Below are positions 1-51,552 of a stretch of DNA of 64,000 nt, piece by piece. The position numbers were made by a program, and so were the translations under genes. Below the pieces are notes generated by a model. It searched no databases, had not been told where the DNA came from, and saw nothing but the letters and a program-made list of their open reading frames with translations. How positions within the stretch are numbered: the first letter of the stretch is position 1; each line of letters opens with the position of its first letter. Source of the stretch: Aquimarina aquimarini (GTDB taxonomy: Bacteria; Bacteroidota; Bacteroidia; Flavobacteriales; Flavobacteriaceae); contig NZ_OMKE01000011.1 of NCBI RefSeq assembly GCF_900299535.1, positions 1 through 64,000 on the forward strand. The letters are read 5' to 3'.

Positions 1-109
1 CATCACCACAACTAATCGCTATGGTATCTGGAGAAAATGTGGATTGCCTTCTAAACATAGAGACAATAGTGGATTGCTTATCATAGGGAAGATTCGTATC
101 ATTAAAAAC
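1..109. repeat. Copy of the C/A-boundary repeat at the left edge
   Basis: Bases 1-109 are identical to 13912-14020, and bases 13-109 are identical to 14021-14117. Similarity continues with scattered differences to about base 231. The segment codes for the end of a C domain and the first residues of the next A domain. It is a genuine intragenic repeat between module 1 and module 5 of the synthetase, and the window begins within it. Confidence 0.9.
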
Positions 110-14020: not shown

Positions 14021-14117
14021 TAATCGCTATGGTATCTGGAGAAAATGTGGATTGCCTTCTAAACATAGAGACAATAGTGGATTGCTTATCATAGGGAAGA
14101 TTCGTATCATTAAAAAC
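13921..14117. repeat. 97-bp exact tandem duplication that breaks the NRPS frame
   Basis: 13921-14020 and 14018-14117 are identical (100 bp, period 97 bp, 3 bp shared). Because 97 is not a multiple of 3, the minus-strand frame of the upstream part meets a TAA at 14013-14015. Deleting one unit joins the two parts into a normal A-domain start (PDTIAIS followed by CGDVSMTYEELE). The same sequence lies at the left edge of the window. An unmerged overlap at an assembly join is the simplest reading; a real slipped-strand duplication is the alternative. Confidence 0.92.
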
Positions 14118-30800: not shown

Positions 30801-33800
30801 ATCTATTTGGTTACTTATCTCTTCTCTACCATGCCCTTCTACTCCAATAACAATATTTTCTTCTCCTATTTGGCTACAAAGAGTCATGGCCAAGGCACTT
30901 AACAATATGTCATTCATATCTGTACCCAATGCAGTGTGTGCCTCTTTTACCAGCGATGTTGTTTTTTCTGAAGAAAGAGATTGTGTTTTATACTTGGTTT
31001 CTTGATAGGTTAGCTCTTTATCAGACTTCTTTTCTACTGGAAATGGTTTTTTATAAGATATGACATCAGTCCAGTAAGGTATTTCTGATTGAAATAACTC
31101 TTCTTTGACAGCAGTCTCCAACGTTGATTGCCATTGCCTATAGGAGGTTGTTTTGTTAGAAAGTGAAGGATCGTTCCCGTTAAGTATTTCATTTAAATCT
31201 TCTAATAGAATTCTCCATGAGACCCCATCAATAACTAAGTGATGTGCACAGAAAAACAATAAATTTTGTTTTCCGTTTTCTGTTTTAGAAATCCAAATTA
31301 CTTTTATGGGTTCTCCTTGAGTACTATCTAATTCTTGTTGGTATTTTTTACATAGCGCTGTTACCTCTTTATCAGAAGACGCTTCTTCTTTAATCAAGGG
31401 TATCTCTTTTGTGGTATATTGTTGGGTAACGGTATTAACATCTTGATATTCAAATGATAATCTAAGCGCATCGTGTTGTTGTATTAAAATTGATACTGCT
31501 TTAGACAATTGAGTATAGGTTAGTTCTTCTTTTATAGAGAATAACATCGATTGATTATAATGATTATAATTCTCCAGATTCATCTCAAAGAACATCTTTT
31601 GAATAGGTAATAACCCAAAAGTTCCTTTTAAAATTCCTTCTTCTCTTAAAGTAGATGTTTGTTTGTCTAATTGTTGTTCTAGTTCGAGAATGGTTTGGTA
31701 TCTAAATACATCTTTTACTTTGAAGTAGAGTTTATAATTTTTAGCTCTACTTACCAATTGAATCGCTTTTATAGAGTCTCCTCCACACTCAAAGAAATTA
31801 TCGGTAACTCCTATTTTTTCTGAGCCTAGCAATTCTTGCCATATGGATACCAGTTGTCGTTGTGTTAGACTTACAGGAGCTATATATTCTTTATCTTGAT
31901 TAGTAATTATTGTTGGTACTGGTAAAGCTTTGATATCTATTTTACCATTGGCAGTCATTGGGAAACTAGCTACTTCTACATAATTTTTTGGAAGCATATA
32001 TGAGGGTAAGCTTTCCTTGAGAAGTGCTTTTATACTAGATACATTGAGTTGTTTTTGGGGCAATAAATAGGCTACAAGCTGATTATTTCCAGAAAGGTCT
32101 TCTTTTGCAATAACTAATGCCTGTTTTATTTCATCCAATTCTTCAATACGGCTTTCGATCTCCCCTGGTTCTACTCTATAGCCACGAACCTGAACTTGAT
32201 TGTCTTTTCTTCCTATAAATTGAATATTACCATCGTGTTGTACTCGTACTAAATCTCCTGTTTTATATAGTTTGGTATTTGTTTTAAAAGGATTCTCTAC
32301 AAATTTTTCTTCTGTGAGCTTGGGCCTATTCCAATACCCTAATGCTAGTTGATCTCCTGCTATACAGAGTTCTCCTGTTATTCCAGGAGGAAGTATCGAT
32401 AGGTTTTCGTCTACAACGTATAAGGACACATTATTTATTGCTTTACCTATAGGTACTGCTCCTACTTCATTTTCTTTTACTTTATAATAAGTAGCAACTA
32501 CTGTGTTTTCTGTAGGGCCATAATTGTTATAAGGGGTTACATTTTTCTTATGTCTATTTATGATTAATGCCTCTCCCCCAATTAAAGCTTTAAATTCTGA
32601 ATGAAATTCCTTGCTTTCTTCTGCTATGACTTCTTTGTATAATACAGGAGGTAGATACCCATGTGTTATCTTATTAGTATTGATAAAGTCTATCAACATT
32701 TCTGTCTCTAAACGCTGCTCATTTGTTATTGGAAAAACACTAGCTCCTATGGTGAGGTAAGGAAAGATTTCCCAAACAGAAGCATCAAAACCAACTCCAG
32801 ACAACAGAGTAGCTTTGCTAGAGGGCTTCACATCATAGGCATCTTGATGCCAATAACATAAATTGCTTAATCCTTTGTGCGAAATCATAACTCCCTTGGG
32901 AACTCCTGTTGTTCCTGATGTATAGATTACATATGCTAATTGATCAGAACTAATTGAAGTAGTAATCGCTTCGTGACTATAAGATGCTAATTGCTTATAC
33001 ACCTCATCTATTTCAATAATCGTTACTGCTGTATTTAGGCTGTTTTTTGTGTAACTCTCCGTATTTGTAATAAGTATTTTGGCCTTTGTATCTTCAAGGA
33101 TAAAATCAATACGCTCTTTTGGGTAAGAAGGATCGATAGGAACATAGGCTGCTCCAGTTTTTAATACTGCCAAGACACTTATAATCATTTCAGTAGATCG
33201 ATCTAAACATATAGGGATTACATCTCCTTCTCTTATATCTTTTGCTATTAAATAATTGGCTAGTTGATTGGATTGTTTATCTATTTCTTGATAAGAAAAT
33301 GAGTGCCCTTCAAAACAAATACTTATCGATTCTGGAGTTTTCTTGGCTATGTTGCAAAATCTATCTATAACATTTTTATCAAGAGCATAATCGATTGTAT
33401 TTACCTGTATACTGTTTATAAGTTCTTTTTCTTCTTCTTTACTGATTAGTTTTAAATCATTAATAAAAGATGTGGGTTGTGCTATTGCTGATTCTAATAC
33501 TTGTTGATAATGAGACAACATGGTACTAATGGTCTTTTCATGAAATAAATCAGTACAATACTCAAGAGTAAGCGTCATTCCTGCTCGATGTTCTTCAACC
33601 TCCATCGCAAGGTCATACTTGGAAACCTGATAGTTACTATTTTCCTCAACGACAATTGTTTCTCCTAATAAAAAGGGTTTCTTTTCTTCAGAATTGGTAT
33701 ATGTAAAAATGGTTTGAAACAAAGGGCTTTTACTCAAATCTCTTTCAATACCTAATAGATTTACTATTTCAGAGAACGGTACTTCCTGATGCTCATGCAC

Positions 33801-35146: not shown

Positions 35147-38100
35147 TTAAAAGAGATCAACTACTTCATACTCTTCTTCATTTTGTTGACCTTGTTTAAG
35201 TATGGTTATGTATTTAGCCAATTTTGCTACCGTTGAAAGTTCAAATAGAAGATGTACTTCTATAGAAATTGTATATTGCGTACGTATCAAAAAGGCCAAT
35301 TTTGCTAACATCATGGAATGTGCTCCCAAATCAAAAAAATTATCGTGAATTCCAATTTTATTTTGATGTAACACTTTCTTACATATGGCAACCAATTCTT
35401 TTTCTAATACGTTTGTTGGTGCGACATAATCAATGGTTTCAAAAAGCTGTTCTTTGACCTCAGGAAGCGCTTTTTTATCTATTTTTCCGTTTGGAGTCAA
35501 AGGTAGATTGTCTAACTTGATAATATGTGCAGGAACCATATATCCTGGTATTTTATTCTCTAAATGGCTTTTTACTTTTTTATACCAATCTTCTATATTT
35601 CTGATCACTACATAAGCAACCATAAATTGCTCATTATCCTCTCCTTTTTTTACAGCTACCACACATTTTTCTACAAATGATACCTTATTAATTATTGTTT
35701 CTATTTCGCCAAGTTCTATCCGATATCCTCTAATTTTTACTTGGGTATCTTTTCTACCTATATACGCTAAAACTCCTTCTGGTAACCATCGTACCATATC
35801 TCCTGTTTTGTATAGCTTTGATCCATCTTTTTCAAAAGGATTGTCTAAAAACTTTTTTTGAGTTAATCGTTCATTGGCAAAATATCCTGCGCTCACTCCT
35901 TTTCCGCTTAGGTATAATTCTCCTATAATCCCTTCGGGAACGAGGTTAAGGTCATTATCTAGCACATATGCTTTGGTATTCGCTATTGGTTTTCCTATAT
36001 ATGATGTTCTGCTAGTATTCATCAACCAACAAGTACTATACGTAGTATCTTCTGATGGCCCGTATAGGTTTCTTACTTTATACGCATCCCAATCCAATCT
36101 TTTCATTACTTGTTCTGGAATAGGTTCTCCTGCCATGTTAATCTCTGTTACATTCTCAAAAATTACCTTGTTATTCTGTAAATGGTTAATCACACTTGGA
36201 ACGGTATTGATTAATATATTTTTGTCTTGCAACAGATACTTGGGGATTGATAATCCATCTTCTAAGATTCGTATTTTTTTCCCACTAGTTAATGAGTAGA
36301 AAAATTCAAAAATGGATAAATCAAAACAGATAGATGTTGTTGCATATACTATTTGGTGTTGGTCTTTTGCAAACTCAGCTGAGCTCCAGTTTAAAAAGGC
36401 TTGTAAATTATCGTGCGAGATCATTACTCCTTTAGGTTTACCCGTTGATCCAGACGTGTAAATGATATATGCCAACATATCTCTGGTAATTGACCGATCT
36501 ATTGATACTTCTTTTTGAGGTTCTTTTGCTATAGAGCTAAACAATATACTTTCTATCCCAAAATCGATATGGTTGTCTGCATTCTTATCTGAACAAATAA
36601 GATATTTTGTTTTAGAATTTTCTATAATATAACGTGTTCTTTCTTCTGGGTATTTCTCATCTAGAGGCACGTATATCGCTCCTGCTTTCCAAATCCCTAA
36701 AATAGTTATTGCTATTTCAAACGACCTTTTAACACATACTCCTATTATATCTTTACTTTCAACCCCTTTACTTATTAAAAAATGGGCAACCTCATCTGAT
36801 TTTTTATCTAATTCTACATAACTCATTGTTGTATCCTTAACAAGAATTGCAGTTTCATTTGGTTGATTCTTGACCTGCTTTTTAAACATATCAAGTACCG
36901 TATTCTTTTCTATAGGGCGCTCAATTGATGTAGTACGGCAAGTATCTAGCATTTGATTCTTTTCTTTTTCTGTTATCATTTTGATAGCTGAAACTTTGAT
37001 ATCCCCATCTTTTATAATTTCTAGAATGAGGTTTCTAAAATGATTGACTAGCCGTTCTATGGTTTCTGGCTTAAACAGGGAATCACGATATTCTACATAC
37101 ACTTCAAAATCTCCTTGCTTTTCGGTAATGCTAAATGTGATATCATATTTTGCCATTTTATATTCAAATGGTTCTTCTGTAACAATAGCATTATCAAGTT
37201 TAATAGCTGGAGCTTCTTGATTGTTTTGCATGATGAAGAGTATCTGAAATAAAGGAGTTTCTCCTAGTACTTTCTTTATTCCTAAGGTTCTAATCACTTC
37301 ATCAAAAGGTACTTCTTGATGCTCATACCCTCTAATTATCGTATTTTTTACCTGATCTAATAATTCTTTGAATACGATGTCTCCAGAGATATGAGTTCGT
37401 AATGCAATAGAATTCACAAAGTAACCGATCAATTTCTGTGTTTGAATATCCTTTCTATTTGCTGTTGGACACCCTATTACTATATCGGTTTTACCTGTGT
37501 ACTTATACAACAACACTTTAAAAATGCTTAGTAGTAGCATATAGGGTGTTGCCCGTTTTGTTCTTGCAAAACTTTTTATTTGATTGCTAAGATCAACCCC
37601 TAATGTGGTCACATAATTCTTACCTGTATGTCCTTGAGAGATATTACGAGAAAAATCTAATGGAAATTGTAAAGGTGTACTATCTTTCAATTGCTCTTTC
37701 CAATAATCTAATTTTGTTTGTATGCTTTTTTGATATGCTGCACTCCTTTGGTGAGCAGCATATTCTATATATGTATATTCTATTTTTTCAAACGCACGTT
37801 CTTCTGTTGTTCTTTTCTGGTTGTAAAATGCATTTAATTCGTTGATAAGAATAGAATTAGACCAACCATCAAAAGCTATATGGTGCATCACTAACAATAA
37901 TTTGTACTGTGCTGTATCTAGTTTAAAAAGGTATGCTTTAAGCATATAATCATTGGCAAGATCAAAAGACGAAACTTTTAATGTATCAATGTATGCTACC
38001 AGTTTAGTATCTTCTTTATACGCATCACTATAGAACATGTTCCAATCATGAGAAGGTAAAAGAGATTGATATACGTCTCCATTTTCTTGCTGATCAAAAA

Positions 38101-38290
38101 CTGTTCTTAAGGATGTGTATTTTTCTACAAGATTTTTTAATGAGTCTTCAAGATTTTGTACATCTATTTTTCCTTGTATGTTATATACATAAGGGATTTG
38201 GTAGTGTGTACTTCCTTCTGTTTTATCAAGTAACCAAAGGCTCTCTTGAGAATATGATAGTGGAAATAAGGATTGCTGTACTTCTGACAT
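35147..38290 (-). CDS. Single-module NRPS, C-A-PCP (1047 aa)
   Basis: Adds one amino acid. The condensation domain starts almost at the N-terminus (PLSYSQESLWLLD from about residue 6; HHIAFDG from 136), so there is no TubC docking domain here. The adenylation domain spans about residues 470-950 (YIIYTSGSTGKPKG, LYGPSEDTTYSTC, NGKIDK). The PCP has Ser992 in the variant motif LGAHSMM instead of LGGHS. Pocket residues read DLFNNALTYK, which resembles codes I remember from cyanobacterial Ala-activating domains; treat Ala as tentative. The acidic-hydrophobic tail EEEYEVVDLF is a likely docking peptide for the TubC domain of the next gene, 173 bp downstream. A 616-bp gap separates it from the PKS-NRPS upstream, which may allow its own regulation. 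Confidence 0.95.
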   Translation of the reverse strand: MSEVQQSLFPLSYSQESLWLLDKTEGSTHYQIPYVYNIQGKIDVQNLEDSLKNLVEKYTSLRTVFDQQENGDVYQSLLPSHDWNMFYSDAYKEDTKLVAYIDTLKVSSFDLANDYMLKAYLFKLDTAQYKLLLVMHHIAFDGWSNSILINELNAFYNQKRTTEERAFEKIEYTYIEYAAHQRSAAYQKSIQTKLDYWKEQLKDSTPLQFPLDFSRNISQGHTGKNYVTTLGVDLSNQIKSFARTKRATPYMLLLSIFKVLLYKYTGKTDIVIGCPTANRKDIQTQKLIGYFVNSIALRTHISGDIVFKELLDQVKNTIIRGYEHQEVPFDEVIRTLGIKKVLGETPLFQILFIMQNNQEAPAIKLDNAIVTEEPFEYKMAKYDITFSITEKQGDFEVYVEYRDSLFKPETIERLVNHFRNLILEIIKDGDIKVSAIKMITEKEKNQMLDTCRTTSIERPIEKNTVLDMFKKQVKNQPNETAILVKDTTMSYVELDKKSDEVAHFLISKGVESKDIIGVCVKRSFEIAITILGIWKAGAIYVPLDEKYPEERTRYIIENSKTKYLICSDKNADNHIDFGIESILFSSIAKEPQKEVSIDRSITRDMLAYIIYTSGSTGKPKGVMISHDNLQAFLNWSSAEFAKDQHQIVYATTSICFDLSIFEFFYSLTSGKKIRILEDGLSIPKYLLQDKNILINTVPSVINHLQNNKVIFENVTEINMAGEPIPEQVMKRLDWDAYKVRNLYGPSEDTTYSTCWLMNTSRTSYIGKPIANTKAYVLDNDLNLVPEGIIGELYLSGKGVSAGYFANERLTQKKFLDNPFEKDGSKLYKTGDMVRWLPEGVLAYIGRKDTQVKIRGYRIELGEIETIINKVSFVEKCVVAVKKGEDNEQFMVAYVVIRNIEDWYKKVKSHLENKIPGYMVPAHIIKLDNLPLTPNGKIDKKALPEVKEQLFETIDYVAPTNVLEKELVAICKKVLHQNKIGIHDNFFDLGAHSMMLAKLAFLIRTQYTISIEVHLLFELSTVAKLAKYITILKQGQQNEEEYEVVDLF

Positions 38291-38906: not shown

Positions 38907-41900
38907 TTATAAAACTTGCAGTGTATCTATGGCACTTTGTTCTTGAGATAACCTAGCGTCTACCAGCGTAGCTATATTTTTTACAGTACTTGCCGAGAAT
39001 AAATCGCCAAGGCTAATCTCAACCCCCAGAGTTTCTTTTATTTCAGCAATGATCTGAGTTCCTAGTAAGGAATGTCCTCCTAGCTCAAAAAAATCATCGT
39101 CTTCAGAAATAGTATCTACATTTAATACCTTCTTCCAGATTTCTGCTATTTTTAATATAGTCGTGTTCTTTTTGGTACTAGAAAGTTGTGATTGAATAAC
39201 TGCTACCAGATTGGTTACTGTACCTGTAGAAAATAGGTCACCTAAACTTACTTCTACTCCCAAGCTTTCTTTGATCTCTGCTATAATCTGAGTTCCTAAC
39301 AGCGAATGACCTCCTAATTCGAAAAAGTCATCTTCTATAGAAATGGTATCAATATTTAATACTTTTTTCCAAATTTCTAAAAGTGTTCCTTCTATCGTTT
39401 TTTCTTCAGTAGTTTCGCCAGCTGTAGCGGCTTCAATTAGTGCCACTAGATTCTTTACTGTTCCTTCTGAGAATAAATCACCAAGGCTAATTTCGATATC
39501 AAAAACTTCTTTGATCTCTGCTATAATCTGAGTTCCTAATAGCGAGTGGCCTCCTAATTCAAAAAAGTCATCTTCTATAGAGATGGTATCGATATTTAAT
39601 ACTTTTTTCCAAATTTCTAATACCTTTTCTACTGTTGTTTCATTAACTATAATTGCTGTAGTATTCTTATCAGATGTTAATTTCTCATCTACTGCTAACG
39701 GATCAGGAAGTTCTCTTTTATTTATCTTCCCATTAGGGGTTAATGGATATGATTCTAAAGAAATAATAAAAGGCGGAATCATATAATCAGGTAGCTGTAA
39801 CTGTAATTCTTGAATGAGTAATTCTTTTGTATATCCTTTATCAGGAATTATATAGCTTACTAATCTTTTTGAGCCTCCTGGGTCTTCTTGCGCTACTACC
39901 AAAGCTTGTTTGATATATGAAGATTTCTTAAAAGTGGTTTCTATTTCTCCCAGCTCAATTCGATACCCTCTTATTTTTACCTGATCGTCTTTTCTGCCTA
40001 TAAATTCAATATCTCCTCCTGGCAACCACCGAACCATGTCTCCTGTTTTATATAACGTAGCATTTTTATGGGTGTCAAATGGATTTGATACGAAACGCTC
40101 TGTTGTTAATTCAGGTTTATTTAAATATCCGTTGGCTACTCCATCTCCTCCTATGTACAATTCTCCTATTACTCCTGTTGGGCATAATTGCATTCCTTTA
40201 TTAAAGATATAAACCGTAGTATTATCTAATGGTTTACCAATAGGCACACTATCTTTTTCTACTTTATTTACCTCATAACTTGTTGCATAGACCACCGTTT
40301 CTGTAGGCCCGTATACATGTACAATTTTACCTTTTCCTAGAGTATCAAAAGCCTTTTTTACATGGGGAACAGATACTAGTTCTCCTCCGAAAAGGATTTT
40401 GCGTATTCCTGATAAGCTTTGTGTATCATAATCTATTAATGCATTAAATAATGCGGTTGTAACAAAACATACTGTAATTTCCTTCTTTTTGATCTCATCT
40501 GCTAACCGAATTACATTTGGAGCGTCTTCTTCTGTTATCATGACTAATCTTGCTCCTGTAAGCAATGTGCTGAAAATTTCATAGGTAGACCCATCAAATG
40601 CAAAATTTGACCATTGTAGCACATGATCTTCTGGTAAAACTTGTATTGCCCCCGTGTCATGTACTAGCTTCATTATGTTTTGATGACTAACCCGAACTCC
40701 TTTGGGAGTTCCTGTTGTACCCGAAGTATACATAATATATGCGATAGAAGATGGAGTACTACTACTATCTAATGGGGTGTCTTGAAAAGATTGTGTTTCT
40801 TCTATCAAAAAATAAGGATAAGAAGATAGTTGTTTTTCGAGGATTAGTTTTTCATCTGTACAGAGGATCGTTTTTACATTAGAGTCTTCTATAATATACT
40901 GCAATCTACTCACCGGATATTCTGTATGTAATGGCACATAGGTAGCTCCACATTGTAACACTCCCAAAATACTCACTATCATATCAACACCTCGTTGTGC
41001 TAGTATAGCAACAGTATCTCCTGATTGTATATTTTCTTTTGTTACTAAATAATTAGCTACTTGTAACGATTTTTTTTGTAGCTCTTTATAAGTCAAAACT
41101 TGATCTTTATAGGTAACAGCAATAGCATTTGGTGTTTTTGCTTGTTGTTCTCTAAAAAGCGCTATCAATGTTTTTTTCTTAGGATATTTTACAGAAGGAT
41201 TATTGTTGCTTTTTAAAGCCCCTTCTATATGTTGTTTGTCTACTAGACAAATTGAATTAATAGTTTGATATGGATCTGTTACAATAGCAGTAACAATACT
41301 TTTATATAAAGAAATTAAGTGCTCTATTGTTTTTTTATCAAATATTTCAGAATTATAATTAATAATACCTTGTATATCATTTTTGCTACGCATCATGATC
41401 ATATTAAGATCATCTGTTGCAATTCCTTCTATTCCTAAATTTAATCCCTTAAATAACCAATCAGATTTTACCGCATACAACTCTGAAAGATCAAAGCTAT
41501 TTACGACAAAAGAAACATTGCACAACGGGTTGTCTATAGTATTGTCTTTTGATCTACTTTTTAGCACTTCTTTGACTACCAAATTAAAAGGTACTTCATG
41601 ATAAGGAAGGCAATTAAATATAGAGGCGCGTTGACGTTCTAAAAACGCTAGTAGTGTTTCTTCTGACTTAATTTTGCAACGAATGGCGATAGTATTGGCA
41701 AAATATCCTAATACATTTTCAAACCCTTCTTCATTACGATTTGCCATTCCTGAACCAATAACAAAATCATCTTGATTCGAAAAATAATGAAGCATTAATG
41801 TATACGCTCCAAAAAGTATGGTATTTAGCGTAACCCCTTCTTTTTTTATAAATGTATCAATCTTCTTAGAAAGAGGCTTAGACAAAAGGAGCTCTATATT

Positions 41901-44900
41901 GCCTCCTTGATACCCCCTTTTTTCTGGATATGAATAATCGGTTGGAAGTTTTAATAACGGAGCATCTGAAAGGTATTCTCTCCAATATGCTAGATCTGTA
42001 TCAAAATCTCCTGATTTAATTTTACTTTTTTCGGTTACTACTAATTCTTCATAATTTCTAATGACTTTACCTAATTGAGGAGTCCTTTTTGCCTGTAAAG
42101 CATCGTATACCTTTATGATTTCTTTGAGAAGTACGATTATCGACCACCCATCAGAAAATAAATGATGCTGTGTAACCATAAGCTTGTACACATCTTCTTC
42201 TAGCTTAACCACTTCAAAATGCATTGTTTCCTCAGAAAAATCAAATGAATATTTCATACGCTTTTTTCTAAGTTTTTCTGCTGCTTTTGTCTTCTCTTTC
42301 TCACTATACTCCGAAAAATCATTAAACGGAATCTGGTAACCTGATTTGCTCTTTACTTCTACAAAAGCAGCCCCCTTTTTATTTTCTTTTATGACAGAGC
42401 GCAAGGCTTCATGTCTATCTACGAGATACTGAATAGTTTCTGCTAAAGTTGTCAAACATAGATTTCCATTATAAAAAAGTTCAAAATAGATATTATGTAA
42501 TTGGTTGATTCCTGTAAGCTTATATATAAACCATAATCTTTCTTGCATTGATGACAATGGTACTTTTGTTACAGTTACCTTATCATCTATCACAACATCA
42601 TCAGAAATTATTTCTTGCTCTTCTATTCCTAAATAATTTTCTACGATAACAGTTGTCAGTTCTTCTATATTAGGGATATTCAACACCTCTGATAAAGAGA
42701 GATTAATAGCTAATTGTTTTGTAATTCGATTTTTTAACTCAACCATCATTAAAGAATCTAAACCTTGTTTAAAAAGACTCTTTCTGGTATCGACAACATC
42801 TTTTGAAGCTAAAGAAAGAATTCTTGCGATATTATCTTTTATCACTTCTTTTATCAGTTGTTTTTGTGCTTTTGGTTTTTTACCTCGAATGGTATCAAGG
42901 AGGTTTACATCATTTAATTTGTCTGTTTTTGATTGTTGCGCATCTGTTAGTTCTTTGTATACTGATGAAATTTCGATTCCGTCATAATATTTTAATAACA
43001 AAGTTGGATCAAATTTTAAAACAGGATATTGCCCTGCTTCACTGTTACCTATTTCCTCCAGTATTTTTATACCTTCATTTTTATGAATATTAATAAATCC
43101 TAAGGCTTTTAATCTTTTCTTTTCTTTCTCTGTTAAACTCTTCGCCATTCCTGTTGACTCCCAAGGAGACCAATTGATACTATAGGTTGGTAGGTGCTGT
43201 TGATTTCTATAGTAGGCAAAATGATCTAAAAAGGTATTTGCTGCAACATAACTTCCTTGCCCTACTCCTAGCACATCCATTACAGATGCCGCAGAAGAGT
43301 AACAAATAAAGAAGTCTAAATCCATCCCTTTTGTCAACTCATGAAGATACCATGCTCCTTGTATCTTTGGCGCCATATCAGAAAGAACTTCTTCTATTAT
43401 TTGATTCTCTACTGTTTTTGCTCTGGTAACTCCCGCAGAATGCACGATCCCTTTGAGAGGAAACTCTTCTGGAATTTCTTCTATTACCTCTGAGAGTGCA
43501 ACTTGATCTGTAACATCTGCTATTGCTATTGTTACCATTGTTCCTAATTGTCTAAGCGCTTCTATTTTTTCTTTTGCATAAGAATCGGGGGTACTTCTAC
43601 CTAATAGAATCAGATGCTTTATAGTATGTTTTTTGACAAACCATTCGGCTGTAAGTAATCCTATCCCTTTACATCCACCAGTAATCATAACAGTACATGC
43701 TGCGGTAGCTATAAAATGCTCTTTTTTATTTTTATCTTTTCTTTTAGTGAGACGTTTACCAAAAACTTGTTGGTCTTTTATAATTAGTTCTTTTTCTAGT
43801 AAATCTTTAGAAATTACTTGACTAATCATCTTATTATTATCCTCTTGTTCTGAAATATCCATAAGAACAAGTGGGATATCTGGGCGTTCGTTTGTAAATA
43901 CCGTTGCTTCACCCCATATAGTTGCTTTTGCCAAATCTATTGTATGGCTAGTAAAGGGCTGGGTATTTTGCGTAATCCAGTAAATATTTTTCAAAAGAGG
44001 AAAGGCTTTTGATTTTGTCCAAGAGATATATTGTTGTAGCATAGCCACAGCTTCTGGCATTTGCTCTTTAATAACTCCTACGGGTTCTTTATTGATTGAA
44101 GGTTTCCACAATACTAAAACAGTGTCTATAGACATTTCTTGTACTATCTCTTCTACGTCTTCTAATTGAGTGGCATAAAAAATAGAATTTCCTTTTTTAG
44201 AAAGCTCATTAATCAACTTGGTATGGGCAGAAGGATCTCCAAAAATTAATAACTTATTTATTGTTCTTTCTTGATAAGTAGCAAGATCTATTGGTTTCCA
44301 ATCTAAATTATAACGCCAATCTACCTCAATTGCATCACTATAATTTTTTAATGAAAAAGATTCTTTTTCTACCGCTCCCATACTCACAAGCCCTACTCCT
44401 TTGTGATTACGAATATCTACTGCAAACATTTCTTTTGCATCTGTAGTCTTGGCAATTTTTCGAATTTTAATCCAGATTTCTTTTTCACAAACTTCTTTGT
44501 ACGTTTCAAAAGTTCCTATAGAAAAAACTGGAAACTGATCCAATTCTCCCTGATCTTCCATTAATATAGAAATAAGGTGAAATGTTTCTTTGAGTATTAT
44601 AGGATGTATTTGAAATGATTGACTGTAAAAATCTACTGTTTCAGAAAGTTGTATCTGTGCCAAAACATGGTGTTCATCTATCCATAATTTCTCAACTTTC
44701 AGCAGTGTATCTGGTACATCTTTTAATCGTTGTAAAGAGCTATTGTACTCATTGATATCATATGGTTGATCAAAAGATGTTTGCAAGTTTTCTATATTCA
44801 CTACATCGCTCTTTTTTTCAGACATAATTAATGTTCCTGAGGCGTTTTCGACCCAATCAGATTCATTTGTCTTTTTACTGTAAAATAAAAAGGAGTAGGC

Positions 44901-47900
44901 TTGATCTGTTTTTCTAACGATCAATTGTATTTGACCTTTTTTATTCTGAAAAAGTAATGGATGGTGTATCTGGAGTTGTTCTACAATCGTGTTTTTTTGT
45001 AGCTTTTGGTGACACATAAACTCCTGAAGTATTTCTAAAATAAGAGATTCTGATGCAATATTGGTCGTTCTATTTTGTACAGTGATCAAAAACGGAAACT
45101 TTTCAAAATCAATATGATTTTGATATATCCAATGATTTGCTCCTTCAAAATAGTTTCCTAATAAAGTCTTCTTACTCTCTATTAATGCTGAATCTGCTGT
45201 TTGTTGTTCTGAATACCAATAGGATGATCTTTGAAAAGGGTATGTGGGTAAATACACATGTTTTCCTTTCTCATACAAAGAGTTCCAGTCTACTTCTCCT
45301 CTATTGGTGTACCATTTTGCTAAACTTTTATATACTGTATCCCCATCTTCTTCTCTACTAGAGGGAAGCCATAAATTGTTTTCTTTCGAGTCAATCTCTT
45401 GACCTATAATTCCTAATACAATAGGTTTGGGGCCCATTTCTATAAATGTGTTAGCTCCTAATTTTTCTATCGTATGTACACATTTTGAGAACTGAACGGT
45501 TTGCCGTAAATGGTCTACCCAATATGCTGAAGAAGCAATATCACCTCCTGTTATTTCACCTGTAAGATTACTTAGGATAGAATACGTTGGTTTGAAAAAA
45601 GTAATCGTATCAAGAACTTCTCTGAACTCATCTAAAACTGGATCCATTAATGAAGAATGACAGGCTCTAGAGATATTTAGTAATTTCGATTTAATTTCTT
45701 TGTCATCGCACCACTTTTTTACTCTAAGGATTTCATCTGTTTTGCCCGATAATACAGTCTGTTTTTTGCCATTAACAACTCCTATAGAGATAGATGGTTC
45801 ATTTTTATTAAATAACTTTTTTACCTCATCTGGCGATAATTTTACAGAAAGCATGCTTCCTTTTTCTGAGTGCTTTTGCATTAATCGACCTCTATGGCAA
45901 ACCAACTTGACACCATCTTCTAGCGTAAAGACATTGGCTACACAAGCGGCTACAATCTCGCCCAAACTATGCCCCAAAAGGTACTTGGGTGTTACTCCCC
46001 ATGATTGCCATAAAGCACTCATCGCAAATTGAAATGCAAATAGTGCTGGTTGCATATAATCTAGTTCTTTCAAAAGAGATTCATATTTCTTGTTGAATAC
46101 AACCTCTTTCAATTCTTTTTCTAAATAAGGAACAGCTAATGAACAACAGAGATCAAAAGTTTCTCTAAACACTGGCTCTGTGTTGTAAATTGTTTTCCCC
46201 ATTTCTGAAAATTGAGAACCTAGACCTGTAAATAGAAATACAGGATTATTAATGTCTATAGCCTCATCTACAAAAAACTCTTCTTTTTGTTCTACCTGAT
46301 ATTTTAGAGTAGATTTTAATTCTTCTATAGTACCAACTTGAAGAATTGATCTATACATAAAGTGATCTTTTCTACACGATAATGTATGAGCTATATCTTG
46401 GAGTTCGATATCTACATGTATTTGTAAGTATTCATATAATCTTTTTTTCTGTTGGATAAGTGCTTCTTTCTTATCTGCTGAAAAAGGAATGTGATACAAT
46501 CCTACTTCTGTCTTTTCAGTTTTTATTTGCTCCTTATCATTTTGAGGAGGTTCTTCAATAATAATATGAGAATTTGTTCCACTTATCCCAAACGAACTTA
46601 TTCCTGCTCTTCTGGTTTTGTTTTTTTCTTTTTTCCAAGGAATTGTATTCTCTACAACTTTTATAGCACTACTATCCCAATCAACATGAGTATTGAGTGT
46701 ATCTAGATGTAGCGTTCTATACAAAGATTGCCTATTAAGACATAAGATTGTTTTTATAACTCCTGCCACTCCTGCTGCAGATTCTGTATGCCCTATATTG
46801 GTTTTTACACTTCCTACATATAATGATGATGCTTTATCACGATTACCAAAAACATTTACTATAGAATCGAGTTCGATTGCATCACCCAACACAGTTCCTG
46901 TACCATGTGTTTCTATATAATCTATATCATCTGGTGATAGCCCTGCATCTGCAAGAGCTTTATAGATTACTTCTCTTTGAGCATTTCCGCTAGGTGCTGT
47001 AAACCCTTGACTTTGACCATCCTGATTAACAGCACTTCCTTTGATGACTCCTACTATTGTATCCCCATCATGTTGTGCTTGGCTCAATGGTTTTAAGACT
47101 AGGGCACCAGCTCCTTCACTTCGTACAAAACCATCTGCTTTTGCAGAAAATGTTTGGCACCTACCTGTTGGAGAAAGCCCTTCTATTTTGCTTAGGCCTA
47201 CCGTGTTTTCTGGATTTAATATTATGTTTACTCCTCCTGCTATTGCGATTTTACATTCTTTATTTTGCAATGATTTTACAGCTGTATGAATTGCAACCAA
47301 CGAGGATGAACAGGCTGTATCTATGACCATATTAGGGCCTTTAAGTCCTAACCAATAGGATAATCTACCCGATATAGCACTCCCTAAAGAGCTTACAAAA
47401 GAGTGAGCCCCCACATGGGATGCATTTTTCATCACTTTGGTATGGTAATCATTTGCATATACCCCAAGATAAACCCCAGTATTACTATCTTGTAACTCTT
47501 TTTTAGTATATCCTGCTTGCTCTAATGCTTCCCATGCAGTTTCTAAAAAAATTCTTTGCTGCGGATCTGTATATATTGCTTCTCTAGGGGAAATCCCAAA
47601 AAACTCTGCATCAAAAAGATCGATATCTGGTAAAAAACCACCCCATTTTGAGTACATTTTTCCTTCTACAGATTTCTGATCAGAAAACCAGTCTTCTAAT
47701 TTCCAACGATTACTAGGAACTTCTATAATTGCATCTTTTTCTTCTTCTAGAAGCTTACAGTAACTATTGATATCAATAACACCTCCAGGAAAACGACACC
47801 CCATACCAATAATAGCTATGGGTTCTTTTTCTTCTTTTTGTTGTACTTTATTTTTTAGGGTCTTGATAGCAATCAGAGCTTGCTTCAATTTTTCTTTATA

Positions 47901-47909
47901 CGTATCCAT
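38907..47909 (-). CDS. Hybrid PKS-NRPS: KS-AT-DH*-KR-ACP-C-A-PCP-PCP-PCP (3000 aa)
   Basis: Extends the starter by one polyketide unit, reduces it to a beta-hydroxy form and couples it to the first amino acid. Residues 1-28 form a charged helix, typical of PKS docking. KS has Cys200, His335 and His374. AT has GHSLGE with Ser648 and retains Arg673, but the specificity motif at 748-751 is RACH instead of HAFH or YASH. A region at about 920-1160 resembles a dehydratase but lacks the HxxxG motif, and HPxxLD reads HPIILK at 1102-1107, so it should be inactive. KR has TGGCKGIG near 1410 and Tyr1554. ACP has Ser1719 (GLDSLM). C has HHLFSDG at 1915-1921. A spans about 2250-2732 with pocket DGYFLGVVYK (Ile-like). 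Three PCPs follow with Ser2789, Ser2869 and Ser2947. The tail ends IDTLQVL. The expected output is a beta-hydroxyacyl-Ile thioester. Confidence 0.96.
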   Translation of the reverse strand: MDTYKEKLKQALIAIKTLKNKVQQKEEKEPIAIIGMGCRFPGGVIDINSYCKLLEEEKDAIIEVPSNRWKLEDWFSDQKSVEGKMYSKWGGFLPDIDLFDAEFFGISPREAIYTDPQQRIFLETAWEALEQAGYTKKELQDSNTGVYLGVYANDYHTKVMKNASHVGAHSFVSSLGSAISGRLSYWLGLKGPNMVIDTACSSSLVAIHTAVKSLQNKECKIAIAGGVNIILNPENTVGLSKIEGLSPTGRCQTFSAKADGFVRSEGAGALVLKPLSQAQHDGDTIVGVIKGSAVNQDGQSQGFTAPSGNAQREVIYKALADAGLSPDDIDYIETHGTGTVLGDAIELDSIVNVFGNRDKASSLYVGSVKTNIGHTESAAGVAGVIKTILCLNRQSLYRTLHLDTLNTHVDWDSSAIKVVENTIPWKKEKNKTRRAGISSFGISGTNSHIIIEEPPQNDKEQIKTEKTEVGLYHIPFSADKKEALIQQKKRLYEYLQIHVDIELQDIAHTLSCRKDHFMYRSILQVGTIEELKSTLKYQVEQKEEFFVDEAIDINNPVFLFTGLGSQFSEMGKTIYNTEPVFRETFDLCCSLAVPYLEKELKEVVFNKKYESLLKELDYMQPALFAFQFAMSALWQSWGVTPKYLLGHSLGEIVAACVANVFTLEDGVKLVCHRGRLMQKHSEKGSMLSVKLSPDEVKKLFNKNEPSISIGVVNGKKQTVLSGKTDEILRVKKWCDDKEIKSKLLNISRACHSSLMDPVLDEFREVLDTITFFKPTYSILSNLTGEITGGDIASSAYWVDHLRQTVQFSKCVHTIEKLGANTFIEMGPKPIVLGIIGQEIDSKENNLWLPSSREEDGDTVYKSLAKWYTNRGEVDWNSLYEKGKHVYLPTYPFQRSSYWYSEQQTADSALIESKKTLLGNYFEGANHWIYQNHIDFEKFPFLITVQNRTTNIASESLILEILQEFMCHQKLQKNTIVEQLQIHHPLLFQNKKGQIQLIVRKTDQAYSFLFYSKKTNESDWVENASGTLIMSEKKSDVVNIENLQTSFDQPYDINEYNSSLQRLKDVPDTLLKVEKLWIDEHHVLAQIQLSETVDFYSQSFQIHPIILKETFHLISILMEDQGELDQFPVFSIGTFETYKEVCEKEIWIKIRKIAKTTDAKEMFAVDIRNHKGVGLVSMGAVEKESFSLKNYSDAIEVDWRYNLDWKPIDLATYQERTINKLLIFGDPSAHTKLINELSKKGNSIFYATQLEDVEEIVQEMSIDTVLVLWKPSINKEPVGVIKEQMPEAVAMLQQYISWTKSKAFPLLKNIYWITQNTQPFTSHTIDLAKATIWGEATVFTNERPDIPLVLMDISEQEDNNKMISQVISKDLLEKELIIKDQQVFGKRLTKRKDKNKKEHFIATAACTVMITGGCKGIGLLTAEWFVKKHTIKHLILLGRSTPDSYAKEKIEALRQLGTMVTIAIADVTDQVALSEVIEEIPEEFPLKGIVHSAGVTRAKTVENQIIEEVLSDMAPKIQGAWYLHELTKGMDLDFFICYSSAASVMDVLGVGQGSYVAANTFLDHFAYYRNQQHLPTYSINWSPWESTGMAKSLTEKEKKRLKALGFINIHKNEGIKILEEIGNSEAGQYPVLKFDPTLLLKYYDGIEISSVYKELTDAQQSKTDKLNDVNLLDTIRGKKPKAQKQLIKEVIKDNIARILSLASKDVVDTRKSLFKQGLDSLMMVELKNRITKQLAINLSLSEVLNIPNIEELTTVIVENYLGIEEQEIISDDVVIDDKVTVTKVPLSSMQERLWFIYKLTGINQLHNIYFELFYNGNLCLTTLAETIQYLVDRHEALRSVIKENKKGAAFVEVKSKSGYQIPFNDFSEYSEKEKTKAAEKLRKKRMKYSFDFSEETMHFEVVKLEEDVYKLMVTQHHLFSDGWSIIVLLKEIIKVYDALQAKRTPQLGKVIRNYEELVVTEKSKIKSGDFDTDLAYWREYLSDAPLLKLPTDYSYPEKRGYQGGNIELLLSKPLSKKIDTFIKKEGVTLNTILFGAYTLMLHYFSNQDDFVIGSGMANRNEEGFENVLGYFANTIAIRCKIKSEETLLAFLERQRASIFNCLPYHEVPFNLVVKEVLKSRSKDNTIDNPLCNVSFVVNSFDLSELYAVKSDWLFKGLNLGIEGIATDDLNMIMMRSKNDIQGIINYNSEIFDKKTIEHLISLYKSIVTAIVTDPYQTINSICLVDKQHIEGALKSNNNPSVKYPKKKTLIALFREQQAKTPNAIAVTYKDQVLTYKELQKKSLQVANYLVTKENIQSGDTVAILAQRGVDMIVSILGVLQCGATYVPLHTEYPVSRLQYIIEDSNVKTILCTDEKLILEKQLSSYPYFLIEETQSFQDTPLDSSSTPSSIAYIMYTSGTTGTPKGVRVSHQNIMKLVHDTGAIQVLPEDHVLQWSNFAFDGSTYEIFSTLLTGARLVMITEEDAPNVIRLADEIKKKEITVCFVTTALFNALIDYDTQSLSGIRKILFGGELVSVPHVKKAFDTLGKGKIVHVYGPTETVVYATSYEVNKVEKDSVPIGKPLDNTTVYIFNKGMQLCPTGVIGELYIGGDGVANGYLNKPELTTERFVSNPFDTHKNATLYKTGDMVRWLPGGDIEFIGRKDDQVKIRGYRIELGEIETTFKKSSYIKQALVVAQEDPGGSKRLVSYIIPDKGYTKELLIQELQLQLPDYMIPPFIISLESYPLTPNGKINKRELPDPLAVDEKLTSDKNTTAIIVNETTVEKVLEIWKKVLNIDTISIEDDFFELGGHSLLGTQIIAEIKEVFDIEISLGDLFSEGTVKNLVALIEAATAGETTEEKTIEGTLLEIWKKVLNIDTISIEDDFFELGGHSLLGTQIIAEIKESLGVEVSLGDLFSTGTVTNLVAVIQSQLSSTKKNTTILKIAEIWKKVLNVDTISEDDDFFELGGHSLLGTQIIAEIKETLGVEISLGDLFSASTVKNIATLVDARLSQEQSAIDTLQVL
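38960..39650 (-). repeat. Triplet of PCP domains at the end of the PKS-NRPS
   Basis: Three tandem carrier domains spaced 240 and 234 bp apart (80 and 78 residues), each with FFELGGHSLLGTQIIAEIKE and an intact Ser. They resemble one another much more than they resemble the PCP triplet at 26721-27350, which has GGMIRKTFDV after the shared motif. The two triplets therefore arose separately, or each has been homogenised within its own gene. Confidence 0.95.
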
Positions 47910-48146: not shown

Positions 48147-49877
48147 TCACTCTAAGAAAGCTAATTCTTTGTCTAATTCATTTTCTAATTGCGCAATATT
48201 CATATCCGCAATTTCTTTTTTGTAAGCTTCTAATGCTTCTTTGTTAGACTCTGGCAAATAAGATAATGAGTTCTCTTTTTTTGGTGATAATTTTTGAGTA
48301 ACAAACTCTGATAAACTTTCTATTGTAGGATGATCAAATATTACAGCAATTGCAATATTTATCGCAAATATCAAAGATAGCTTTTTGACTAGCTTAAGTG
48401 CTTCTAAAGAATTCATGCCCATATCCTTAAGAGGTTTTTTTATATCAATCTGGTTTTGATCTTCTATCTTCAAGATATCACCTACCTGTTCTTGAATTAC
48501 ATGTAAAACATTTTGAAGTTCTTTTTGATCGTTTACATTTTCAATATTCGTATTCTTTCTCTCAGAAAGTAATTTGGTAATGTCTTCAAAAAAACATTGA
48601 ATTGCTGTATCTTTTTTAAATGTATTTTCTGAAGAGCGTTTACTATCTGTAAATATTCCTTTTTCTAATTGCCATTTTGTAAAACTATCATATATCATCA
48701 AAGGTTGATCATCTGTTGCTGATGCCAGAGACAAAAACTCATGATCTCCATATTGTTCAATAATTCCTAATAAAATAGGATTAGGGCCTACTTCTATCAG
48801 GGTATCTATATCTAGCTGTTTTAGTTGTTGCCAAGCGGATAGAAATTTTACAGATCCTAATAAATGTTCTATCCAATATTGAGACTTACAAACTTCTTTT
48901 CCAGCAACTTTTCCTGAAATACAACTTACTAGTTTTATTTTAGGTTCATTTTTTTGAATGGATGCTAGAACTTCTGTATAACTTTTTAAAGCGGGCAACA
49001 TTAATGGAGAGTGAAAGGCATGAGATATTCTAAGCTTCTTGGCTTCATACCCTTTTTCTTCAAGTCTTTTCATGATTTCCTTAAGGCTCTCAGGCGCACC
49101 AGAAATTACTGTTTGTATTGCACTATTTATTACTGCAATTCCTACTGTTTTTTTATATCCTTGCAAAAAAGGCACTACTTCTAACTCACTTGCCTGTACG
49201 GCTACCATCTGTCCTTTTTTGGTCAATGTCTCTACAAACTCACCACTTTTGCATGTTAATTTTATCGCATCTTCCAAAGAAAAAACTCCCGCTACACACG
49301 AGGCTGTTATCTCACCGATACTATGCCCAATCACTGCTTTGGGTTTTATTCCTTTGGATTGCCATATTTTATACATTGCGTATTCATACGCAAATAGAGT
49401 CATTTGCATATAATCAATACGATGAATTAATTTGCCAAGTTTAGTTGTTTTTCCTGCAAACAATACCTGTCGTATATCTTTTTTTAGATACTTCATTGCT
49501 ATTATAGCACACTCATCAATAGCATCCTTAAAAACAGGCTCTGTTTGGTATAATTCTTTTCCCATCTTGGCATATTGCGCCCCTCCACCAGTAAAAAGAA
49601 AAGCTGCTTTTCCTTGAAAATGCTCTTTTGTACGAAAAATAGCTACTGACCTATATAATCCTTTTTCTACAGCTTTTAGTTTTTCTATCAACTCTTCTTT
49701 ATTGGCTATAGCAAGGATTATATAGGATTTGTGCTTTCTAGTGATACCTAATGACTGATGTGACAATTGGTTTATTGAGAATCTTTGTTGTTGTTCAATA
49801 AATGACTTCAATTGTTTTGCTACTATTGACAAATCGCTAATATTCCTATAGGGAAGTAAAATTTGTTTTTTTGTCAT
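48147..49877 (-). CDS. Stand-alone acyltransferase-ACP loading protein (576 aa)
   Basis: Predicted to load the starter acyl unit. The order resembles a PKS module that has lost its KS: a KS-AT linker-like segment (1-90), AT (about 92-380, GHSIGE with Ser186, HAFH at 286-289), then ACP (about 455-530, DMGMNSLEA with Ser490). The last 45 residues are charged and helical (QLENELDKELAFLE), fitting a C-terminal docking helix for the coiled-coil N-terminus of the PKS. The Arg that holds the free carboxylate of malonyl-type substrates (CHRG in the extender AT of the neighbouring PKS) is Ser211 here (CKSG). Loading ATs for simple acyl-CoAs are known to lack that Arg, so a monocarboxylic starter such as acetyl is inferred. 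The gene lies 32 bp downstream of the thioesterase gene and is probably co-transcribed with it. Confidence 0.92.
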   Translation of the reverse strand: MTKKQILLPYRNISDLSIVAKQLKSFIEQQQRFSINQLSHQSLGITRKHKSYIILAIANKEELIEKLKAVEKGLYRSVAIFRTKEHFQGKAAFLFTGGGAQYAKMGKELYQTEPVFKDAIDECAIIAMKYLKKDIRQVLFAGKTTKLGKLIHRIDYMQMTLFAYEYAMYKIWQSKGIKPKAVIGHSIGEITASCVAGVFSLEDAIKLTCKSGEFVETLTKKGQMVAVQASELEVVPFLQGYKKTVGIAVINSAIQTVISGAPESLKEIMKRLEEKGYEAKKLRISHAFHSPLMLPALKSYTEVLASIQKNEPKIKLVSCISGKVAGKEVCKSQYWIEHLLGSVKFLSAWQQLKQLDIDTLIEVGPNPILLGIIEQYGDHEFLSLASATDDQPLMIYDSFTKWQLEKGIFTDSKRSSENTFKKDTAIQCFFEDITKLLSERKNTNIENVNDQKELQNVLHVIQEQVGDILKIEDQNQIDIKKPLKDMGMNSLEALKLVKKLSLIFAINIAIAVIFDHPTIESLSEFVTQKLSPKKENSLSYLPESNKEALEAYKKEIADMNIAQLENELDKELAFLE

Positions 49878-49909: not shown

Positions 49910-50620
49910 TTAATTCATAAGAGATTTAGCTGTATGAGCTGCTTTATTTATAATGCTACCTATTTCTTGAAATTTATCTAAAATAAAAAAGTGACCTCCT
50001 TCAAACTGCTGAAACCTAAACGGGTATTTTGTTTCTTCTTGCCAACCAATAAGTTGCTCCTTGGAAACGTCTTCGTCTAATCCTGCTAAAACAGTAATCG
50101 GAATATCTAAAGCTTTATCCTGCTTATATTCATAAGTTTCTATCGCTTTAAAATCTGCCCTAAGTATCGGTAAAAAGAAATCCAAAATTTCTTTATTCTC
50201 GATAGCTCGTTTAGGAAATCCGCCTAATACTCTTAACTCTTCTTTGAAATCTTCATCACTTAATGTATGGCAAGTAACCTTTCTAACATGATTATACCTA
50301 GGAGCTTTACAACTAGATATAATCATATGTAAAGGCAACTGATCTTCTTTTTTTTGAAGTAATCGAGAAACTAAAAAACATAACATCCCCCCAAGGCTAT
50401 GCCCATAAAGGATATAGGGCTCGTCATCTGTTATATTTTTAATTTGATGATATATATCTACTGCCATTTCATTAAGATCTGTCAATAAATTCTCTTTGAT
50501 CCTTTTTCCATGACCTGGTAATTCTATAGACTCCATTACTAATGTACTGTCTATATGTTCTTCTAATTTGGCAAAGCTAAATTTATTACCTCCACCATAA
50601 TGTATACATATTATTTTCAT
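49910..50620 (-). CDS. Type II thioesterase (alpha/beta hydrolase, 236 aa)
   Basis: Family role: frees carrier proteins blocked by wrong acyl groups on NRPS and PKS lines. The fold signature is complete: N-terminal IICIHYGGGNKFSF, nucleophile Ser75 in GHSLGG, an acidic residue at Asp182 or Asp184 (LAGLDEDV), and His210 in EGGHFF. The length is normal for type II enzymes. It sits 26 bp after the Fe/2OG enzyme and 32 bp before the AT-ACP gene, so it belongs to the same transcript. It is not the chain-terminating thioesterase, which is normally fused to the last module. Confidence 0.95.
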   Translation of the reverse strand: MKIICIHYGGGNKFSFAKLEEHIDSTLVMESIELPGHGKRIKENLLTDLNEMAVDIYHQIKNITDDEPYILYGHSLGGMLCFLVSRLLQKKEDQLPLHMIISSCKAPRYNHVRKVTCHTLSDEDFKEELRVLGGFPKRAIENKEILDFFLPILRADFKAIETYEYKQDKALDIPITVLAGLDEDVSKEQLIGWQEETKYPFRFQQFEGGHFFILDKFQEIGSIINKAAHTAKSLMN

Positions 50621-50646: not shown

Positions 50647-51552
50647 TTAACTAGAATATGATAGTACTGGAAAAGGCTGTCCCAAATTATTTTTAGTTCT
50701 AAATTTGTTATGCCCATATGTATCTGTACCACTAACCTTAACACATCCCCAATCTTTTAAATCAAAATCAGCTCCATGTGCTCTAAAAGTTGATGTATTT
50801 GGATATACTTGTACCTGCCCTTGTACATATCTGCAAGCAACGGCAAATCTAGTAGAACGTTCTGAAGTATTAGGAAAAGAAGCATGCATACATCTTGCAG
50901 AAAAAATTACACATTCTCCTGGTTTCATTTCTAGAACAGCAGCTTTAGATTCATCTGGTTCCCAGTTAGAATCTACTTTAAAATCTGAGAAATTATATCC
51001 ATAAAAACTCGTATCAGACTCTACGGCTGTATATGCTTCTTCTCTACCTGTGCTTATATTTTTCTTCTCATCAAAAAACATTTTGTTATGAGAACCTGGC
51101 ATCATTTTCAAACATCCATTTTCTTTGGTAGCATCTGTAAAAGTAGTCCAAACAGTTAAATCAAAAGGAATTCCCTCTTCTGTAGCCGTTGGAATTAACT
51201 GGGGTTTTCCTGTTGCATAGCTATAATCTTGTACTTGATGCCACTCTGTACCCTTACTTCCTGGATATTTAGGAAACATCTCTACCCTCCATAGGTTAAT
51301 ATCATCCCCCATAATACTTGCCAATCTCTCCACTATTTCTTCTCTACAGATATGATTAGTTAATTCTTCTATATCAAAATGTCTGTCATAATTGAGTGTG
51401 TTTTTGTGTAACATTTTTGAATGATCAGCACCTTTAATTCTAATCTGTTTCAGAATATTCTTTGCTTCTTCTGGTTCGTAAACTTTTATAGGACCTATAA
51501 ATCCTTGTTCAAAAAATTGCTTTTTTTCTTCTGGTGTTAATGAATTTTTCAT
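50647..51552 (-). CDS. SyrB2-like Fe(II)/2-oxoglutarate-dependent enzyme (PhyH family, 301 aa), atypical metal site
   Basis: Resembles SyrB2-type enzymes, which chlorinate amino acids held on carrier proteins. Close matches include NYDRH, NHICR, FPKYPG, GKPQ, VWTTFTD, ENGC and PGSHNKM. The distal metal His is His223 (MHAS), and Arg241 (CRYV) fits the 2-oxoglutarate anchor. The proximal site reads W-H105-Q-V107-Q-D. Hydroxylases have Asp or Glu two residues after the His, and SyrB2-type halogenases have Ala or Gly; here it is Val107, confirmed as a GTA codon. The carboxylate ligand is therefore absent, as in halogenases, but the side chain is larger. It is the first gene of the cluster transcript, 26 bp before the thioesterase gene. 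The likely substrate is a PCP-bound aliphatic residue, plausibly Ile on one of the PCP triplets. Halogenation, hydroxylation or another oxidative outcome cannot be told apart from sequence. Confidence 0.9.
   Translation of the reverse strand: MKNSLTPEEKKQFFEQGFIGPIKVYEPEEAKNILKQIRIKGADHSKMLHKNTLNYDRHFDIEELTNHICREEIVERLASIMGDDINLWRVEMFPKYPGSKGTEWHQVQDYSYATGKPQLIPTATEEGIPFDLTVWTTFTDATKENGCLKMMPGSHNKMFFDEKKNISTGREEAYTAVESDTSFYGYNFSDFKVDSNWEPDESKAAVLEMKPGECVIFSARCMHASFPNTSERSTRFAVACRYVQGQVQVYPNTSTFRAHGADFDLKDWGCVKVSGTDTYGHNKFRTKNNLGQPFPVLSYSS

Follow-up and report, generated by a model that had tools for sequence, protein, structure and literature searches.

The locus raises the question of which reaction is catalysed by an enzyme that resembles the halogenase SyrB2 but carries valine in place of the alanine next to the iron. 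The gene, P0001, is a single intact ORF with an ATG start at 50647-51552 on the minus strand of the window (the whole stretch of 64,000 nucleotides analysed), encodes 301 aa and stands at the head of a gene row. Based on the ORF, phmmer and TIGR01762, we annotated it as an aliphatic halogenase gene, an HQV variant of the family: its score against TIGR01762 'chlorinating enzyme' was 327.6 bits, above the curated cut-off of 226.3, and CytC3 (3gja, E 4e-76) and SyrB2 (2fct, E 8e-72) were by a wide margin the best of its 8 matches among solved structures at E 0.01 in phmmer. The full-length alignments to both enzymes contain a few short gaps and none near the proximal motif, where W104-H105-Q106-V107-Q108-D109 (51226-51243, minus) stands opposite WHQADT of SyrB2, and CytC3 likewise has WHQA. 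The gap-free pairing assigned by the sequence-only reading was thereby borne out, with H105=H116, V107=A118 (codon 51232-51234), Q108=D119 and D109=T120, and the distal iron ligand His223 (50884-50886, minus) pairs with H235. According to the alignment, the iron site consists of two histidines, H105 and H223, with V107 at the third place and no Asp or Glu. An AlphaFold2 model of P0001 from a 3-row alignment reached a pLDDT of 31 and was discarded.

Homologues were collected from a plasmid protein search (28 records, 15 taken; H4, H5, H10-H19 and H28 not), a genome-contig scan with one protein (2 loci) and searches of the genus, which gave three close relatives. The eight nearest homologues examined all carry HQV and, together with P0001, make up nine HQV rows. 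They span Bacteroidota, Cyanobacteria, Actinomycetes and Alpha-, Beta- and Gammaproteobacteria, and their identity to P0001 is 79% in genome G397, 78% in G400 and 47-48% in G449 (all three of the same genus), 61% in an Alphaproteobacteria MAG, 60% in Nostoc, 54% in Pectobacterium betavasculorum, 53% on a Streptomyces plasmid and 51% on a Burkholderia stagnalis replicon. A one-off mutation, a sequencing error or a pseudogene was rejected, as the ORF is intact and V is present in all eight nearest homologues. The search for homologues and gene contexts proposed by the sequence-only reading thus did return HQV relatives, but it did not leave the valine unusual. H105, H223, R235, R241, T102, T133, W135 and E91 are invariant in 9/9 HQV rows, which we counted for the halogenase reading; in SyrB2 numbering these are both His, Arg248, Arg254, Thr113, Thr143, Trp145 and Glu102, of which R248, R254, T113, T143 and W145 are presumably the 2-oxoglutarate binding residues. 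The earlier statement that the other hallmarks, including His223, are kept therefore held.

Inside the genus, the HQV enzyme was found in 4 of 66 genomes; no relative of P0001 was found in an even sample of 394 other genomes of the phylum (limit 1e-20) or of 396 other genomes of the family (limit 1e-40), and a scan of viral contigs gave 40 pattern matches and no relatives. Between P0001 and its counterparts in G397 and G400, dN was 0.16-0.17 and dS 1.4-1.7 by NG86, and 0.15-0.16 and 0.9-1.0 by LWL85; nearly saturated synonymous changes beside a dN of 0.15-0.17 indicate strong selection on the enzyme. Besides the HQV enzymes, the genus gave eight more distant matches, seven of which (L011-L017) have HQT, while L042 fell outside the alignment. 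One HQT PhyH-like protein, that of G414 (L038, 410 aa), has genes of a DHDPS-family protein and an aldehyde dehydrogenase close by.

In a tree of 25 rows, 12 HQA proteins including SyrB2, CytC3 and CmaB grouped in a single clade (99/97) that excluded the V rows. L013, L015, L016 and L017 (HQT), L037 (match figures the same as those of L005) and L002, the second PhyH of the own genome, which had no match in the homologue comparison, were omitted from the tree. P0001 shares with SyrB2, CytC3 and CmaB the family, the two His, the 2-oxoglutarate residues and the lack of a carboxylate ligand; these three act on carrier-bound amino acids, and the same is predicted for P0001. However, it has Val for Ala118 and lies in a separate clade. 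Since the position two after the proximal His is Val in 9/9 HQV rows, not the Ala or Gly typical of the SyrB2/CytC3/CmaB clade, and P0001 stands outside that clade, we did not file it there. The eight HQV neighbours and the placement of the V rows outside the HQA clade indicate that valine marks a wider group. A more distant Nonomuraea protein (37% identity, L034) also has V at the motif and was placed beside the HQA clade, so that the tree requires two changes for HQV; monophyly of HQV was not supported. A change from Val to Ala is suggested, with the root of the drawing resting on the long-branched HQT rows. In addition to HQV, the Nonomuraea protein has Glu at the position four before its distal His; HctB is stated to have this combination as Val113 and Glu223.

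Whether valine permits halogenation can be judged from precedents. HctB, whose Fe ligands are His111 and His227 and whose model places Val113 at the corner of the halide, dihalogenates a tethered acyl-ACP substrate and gives oxygenated side products, according to the part of the paper available (PMC6218459). Val113 is two after His111, indicating that HctB is an HxV enzyme; we infer this from the residue numbers, and the available part of PMC6218459 is silent on it. As excerpted, a BesD preprint describes HctB, like SyrB2, as slow to react with O2 without a coordinated anion (PMC10187165). By analogy with HctB, Val would be compatible with halogenation and is not barred by precedent. The claim of the sequence-only reading that SyrB2-type halogenases use HxA or HxG was thus too strict, and its suggestion that Val signals new halogenase chemistry lost its footing, as the wider group and HctB both have Val. 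The wording of the literature differs: a review has Ala or Gly 'usually' taking the place of the carboxylate in halogenases (PMC8407142), and a 2026 annotation preprint gives HXG/A as the motif indicating halogenation (PMC12871659). We found no account of an HXV motif among the papers listed by our searches, no paper joining Pectobacterium betavasculorum with a halogenase, and only sunscreen papers on the Nostoc strain that carries an HQV enzyme. The motif by itself decides no reaction, and the compared set contains no characterised HQV enzyme. Swapping the residue at this position was not by itself enough to convert P4H, SyrB2 or TauD (PMC2767507).

The surrounding genes provide the context for a substrate. 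On the minus strand, the halogenase gene is followed by a thioesterase gene, probably of type II (49910-50620; Pfam PF00975, E 5e-40), a gene for an AT-ACP protein (48147-49877; domain search and alignment), a gene for a 3000-aa KS-AT-(DH-like)-KR-ACP-C-A-PCP-PCP-PCP protein (38907-47909; domain search), in which the DH match of 23.5 bits is just below the cut-off of 23.7, and a C-A-PCP gene (35147-38290) with the code DLFNNALTYK. Three more genes complete the row: a 6386-aa NRPS containing five A domains (15813-34973, minus), a stand-alone condensation domain protein of 555 aa (14013-15680, minus) and an NRPS of at least 4656 aa that runs off the contig start (2-13969, minus), all assigned by domain search. 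Scans for promoters and terminators round the head of the row gave nothing above shuffled sequences, and the operon is therefore inferred from strand and spacing. T9SS genes were also detected and point to Bacteroidota.

Two A domains of the row, in the 3000-aa protein (40122-41156, minus) and in the 6386-aa NRPS (27813-28844, minus), gave the same extracted code, DGYFLGVVYK, which we take to be isoleucine-type, as we take DLFNNALTYK to be alanine-type from the code table. Domain and motif searches located a PCP triplet on each of these modules, the first at 38955-39662 (minus; motifs at aa 2785, 2865 and 2943) and the second at 26706-27374 (minus; motifs at aa 2569, 2642 and 2715), both candidate docking sites. 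The PCP copies within the window triplets are 66-93% alike, compared with 20-57% among seven of the window's single PCPs. A third Ile-type A domain, in the gene at 2-13969, has no tandem PCPs and was counted against the main reading. In the AT of the AT-ACP protein, Ser replaces the Arg carried by the in-module, chain-extending ATs, and this holds for the window, G397 and G400 alike. The replacement of this Arg by Ser indicates that the starter is probably a monocarboxylic one.

G397 and G400, which represent two other species of the genus, have the same gene order as the window, with 78-79% identity in the enzyme, 58% in the thioesterase and 43-47% in the AT-ACP and NRPS proteins, and their NRPS genes are divided differently from those of the window. 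Tandem PCPs are present on two branched-aliphatic modules in all three clusters (3+3 in the window, 3+3 in G397 and 3+4 in G400), and the tandem copies of G397 and G400 are 49-95% alike. The codes of these modules are Ile-type for both in the window but Val-type for the first and Ile-type for the second in G397 and G400, and we counted the Val-type codes against the main reading. We likewise counted against it the different division of the NRPS genes and a methyltransferase-like gene that is present in G397 and G400 and absent from that place in the window. The G397 cluster ends in an NAD_binding_4 terminal reductase and a class III aminotransferase. A homologue (56%) of this aminotransferase is encoded in the own genome at C44:2069-4186, at the very start of a contig, and G000:C44:1-4195 as a whole holds an NRPS piece (the end of an A domain, PCP and reductase) followed by the aminotransferase. 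Because contig C23 begins with the window, the cluster was most likely broken at this point during assembly; the tie to C44 is by homology. The A-PCP-reductase piece and the aminotransferase are thus probably the end of the window's gene row, and reduction to an aldehyde followed by transamination would yield a C-terminal amine.

Such an amine is also reported for the aquimarins. Dieterich et al., Angew. Chem. 2022, reportedly found these compounds to bear chlorine and an amino group at the C-terminus, an unusual feature, and AqmA is said to be an Fe(II)/2OG chlorinase that acts on as many as two carrier-bound isoleucines. AqmA and P0001 would have in common an Fe/2OG enzyme of a PKS-NRPS cluster, a carrier-bound isoleucine, the C-terminal amine and a putative shared genus, Aquimarina. 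The window holds a PKS-NRPS hybrid together with a gene of the Fe/2OG chlorinase family, and the reductase and aminotransferase are found at G000:C44:1-4195, on the other contig tied by homology to G397. Aquimarins are described as NRPs of a PKS-NRPS hybrid cluster of Aquimarina sp. Aq135 (assembly GCA_921010045.1) in PMC9323603, which was the only paper on aquimarins among the matches listed; PMC12615548 contains neither 'aquimarin' nor 'AqmA'. Because the A codes and the gene set differ among the three clusters, the product of the window is probably a relative of aquimarin and not aquimarin itself.

An Fe/2OG enzyme heading a hybrid cluster, a reductase and aminotransferase, and two Ile-type modules with special carriers led us to read P0001 as AqmA-type. 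We consider it highly likely that P0001 works as a free-standing Fe(II)/2-oxoglutarate halogenase, with chlorine as the most probable halogen, and that its substrate is an aliphatic amino acid, with isoleucine as the best candidate, presented in trans by the PCP triplets of two aquimarin-like PKS-NRPS modules. On our best reading, P0001 is an aliphatic chlorinase that depends on carrier proteins and belongs to a new cluster of the aquimarin-like kind. This reading is built on the sequence, the hallmark residues, the gene row, the conservation in relatives and the genome's reductase-aminotransferase pair; the chloride, the chlorination, the substrate, the docking on the triplets and the AqmA-type identity are its predicted parts. 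In the proposed mechanism, the two His would bind the iron, a protein carboxylate being absent, and chloride would occupy the open site next to Val107. The oxo-iron(IV) species would abstract a side-chain hydrogen, and the resulting radical would then capture chlorine, on an isoleucine tethered to the PCP triplets, which are possible docking sites for P0001. Halogenase-like chemistry on a carrier-bound residue, with Ile among the guesses, was already the proposal of the sequence-only reading and is supported here as a predicted function.

The substrate could instead be an acyl-ACP starter, on the AT-ACP or on the ACP of the KS module, as HctB acts on hexanoyl-ACP. The P0001 gene adjoins the thioesterase and AT-ACP genes, the starter AT lacks Arg in the window and both relatives, and HxV is common to HctB and P0001, as far as the residue numbers in PMC6218459 tell. 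The HQV gene also lies beside or near a two-carrier protein at L007 and L008 (Pectobacterium and an alphaproteobacterium), where Pfam detected AMP-ligase, KR and two PP-binding domains in that protein (AMP ligase-KR-ACP-ACP), and in G449 (L043/L044), where the nearby protein has two carrier motifs. However, in the window, G397 and G400 it is modules for aliphatic amino acids that bear the tandem PCPs, the reported AqmA work points to isoleucine, and the Streptomyces HQV gene (L005) is neighboured by genes for a carrier protein and a free-standing adenylation protein. We regard an acyl-ACP starter as quite unlikely. P0001 differs from HctB in being a stand-alone 301-aa enzyme and not fused to an ACP, and in having Ala219 where HctB has Glu223, four before the distal His. 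The Nostoc HQV gene is flanked by NRPS genes with Thr-type codes, and such differences in gene neighbours across HQV enzymes indicate that the substrates probably differ within the group. The pairing of an HQV enzyme with a tandem-carrier protein in three unrelated classes has the look of a shared cassette.

Returning to the reading of P0001 as a chlorinase, its pocket differs from that of SyrB2 by A118V, N123Y, S231A, L233C and Y272H, which we counted against it. These changes belong to the HQV rows as a group. Position 123 of SyrB2 (Tyr112 of P0001, 51217-51219, minus) is Tyr in 9/9 HQV rows and N, H, F or G in the 12 HQA rows; position 231 (Ala219) is Ala in 8/9 HQV rows and Ser in HQA rows; position 233 (Cys221) is Cys in 9/9 and Leu in 10/12 HQA rows; position 272 (His259, 50776-50778, minus) is His in 9/9 and Tyr or Phe in 12/12 HQA rows; and position 230 is Ser, Thr or Met in HQV rows and Trp or Arg in HQA rows. 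It is conceivable, though unlikely, that the fixed or nearly fixed HQV pocket of Val107, Tyr112, Ala219, Cys221 and His259 alters the group transferred or the extent of the reaction (another anion, dihalogenation, desaturation or, in part of the group, oxygenase activity with a third His), giving chemistry beyond the SyrB2 model.

The altered pocket residues and the greater size of Val compared with Ala would also suit a two-His hydroxylase in which Val107 keeps the halide out and water occupies its place. For AspH, two His without a carboxylate ligand suffice for hydroxylation (PMC10947486), and its iron site is in this respect like that of P0001, although AspH was absent from the 8 PDB matches of P0001 at E 0.01. 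However, HctB halogenates with Val113 according to the part of PMC6218459 available, the SyrB2-site residues E91 and R241 are kept in 9/9 HQV rows, and both characterised relatives, SyrB2 and CytC3, act as halogenases, which makes a hydroxylase very unlikely. Many HQV homologues with proven hydroxylase activity, the finding that the sequence-only reading had set against itself, did not appear in our narrow literature search, which returned not even one. A normal facial triad with another residue (Asp109, Tyr112 or His259) as its third member is hardly credible, as position 109 is unconserved (D, D, D, T, D, R, N, N, T; D in 4/9 HQV rows) and the earlier proposal of Asp109 as replacement ligand falls with it, and as Tyr112 and His259, though present in 9/9 HQV rows, correspond to SyrB2 N123 and Y272, whereas His116 and His235 are the only SyrB2 iron ligands named in the excerpt of PMC2767507.

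With P0001 read as a carrier-dependent halogenase, the valine ceases to count as a novelty and becomes a point that can be put to the test. To judge from the sequences compared, HXV is very likely a standing motif of carrier-dependent halogenases, a stable alternative to HXA/HXG among their relatives in several phyla, and motif searches demanding A or G would lose the HQV group. Tandem PCPs may allow the chlorinated residue to be predicted from the genome.

Some further ORFs were recognised by eye in and around these clusters. In G397, a transposase-like ORF (L018, 15904-16719) separates the halogenase gene from that of the thioesterase. NusG/RfaH-type antiterminator-like ORFs of 190-192 aa were seen at two sites, one directly upstream of the halogenase gene in G400 (L022-L025 joined, reversed, 12068-12646) and the other close to the end of the cluster in the genome to which the window belongs (L050:6649-7221, minus).
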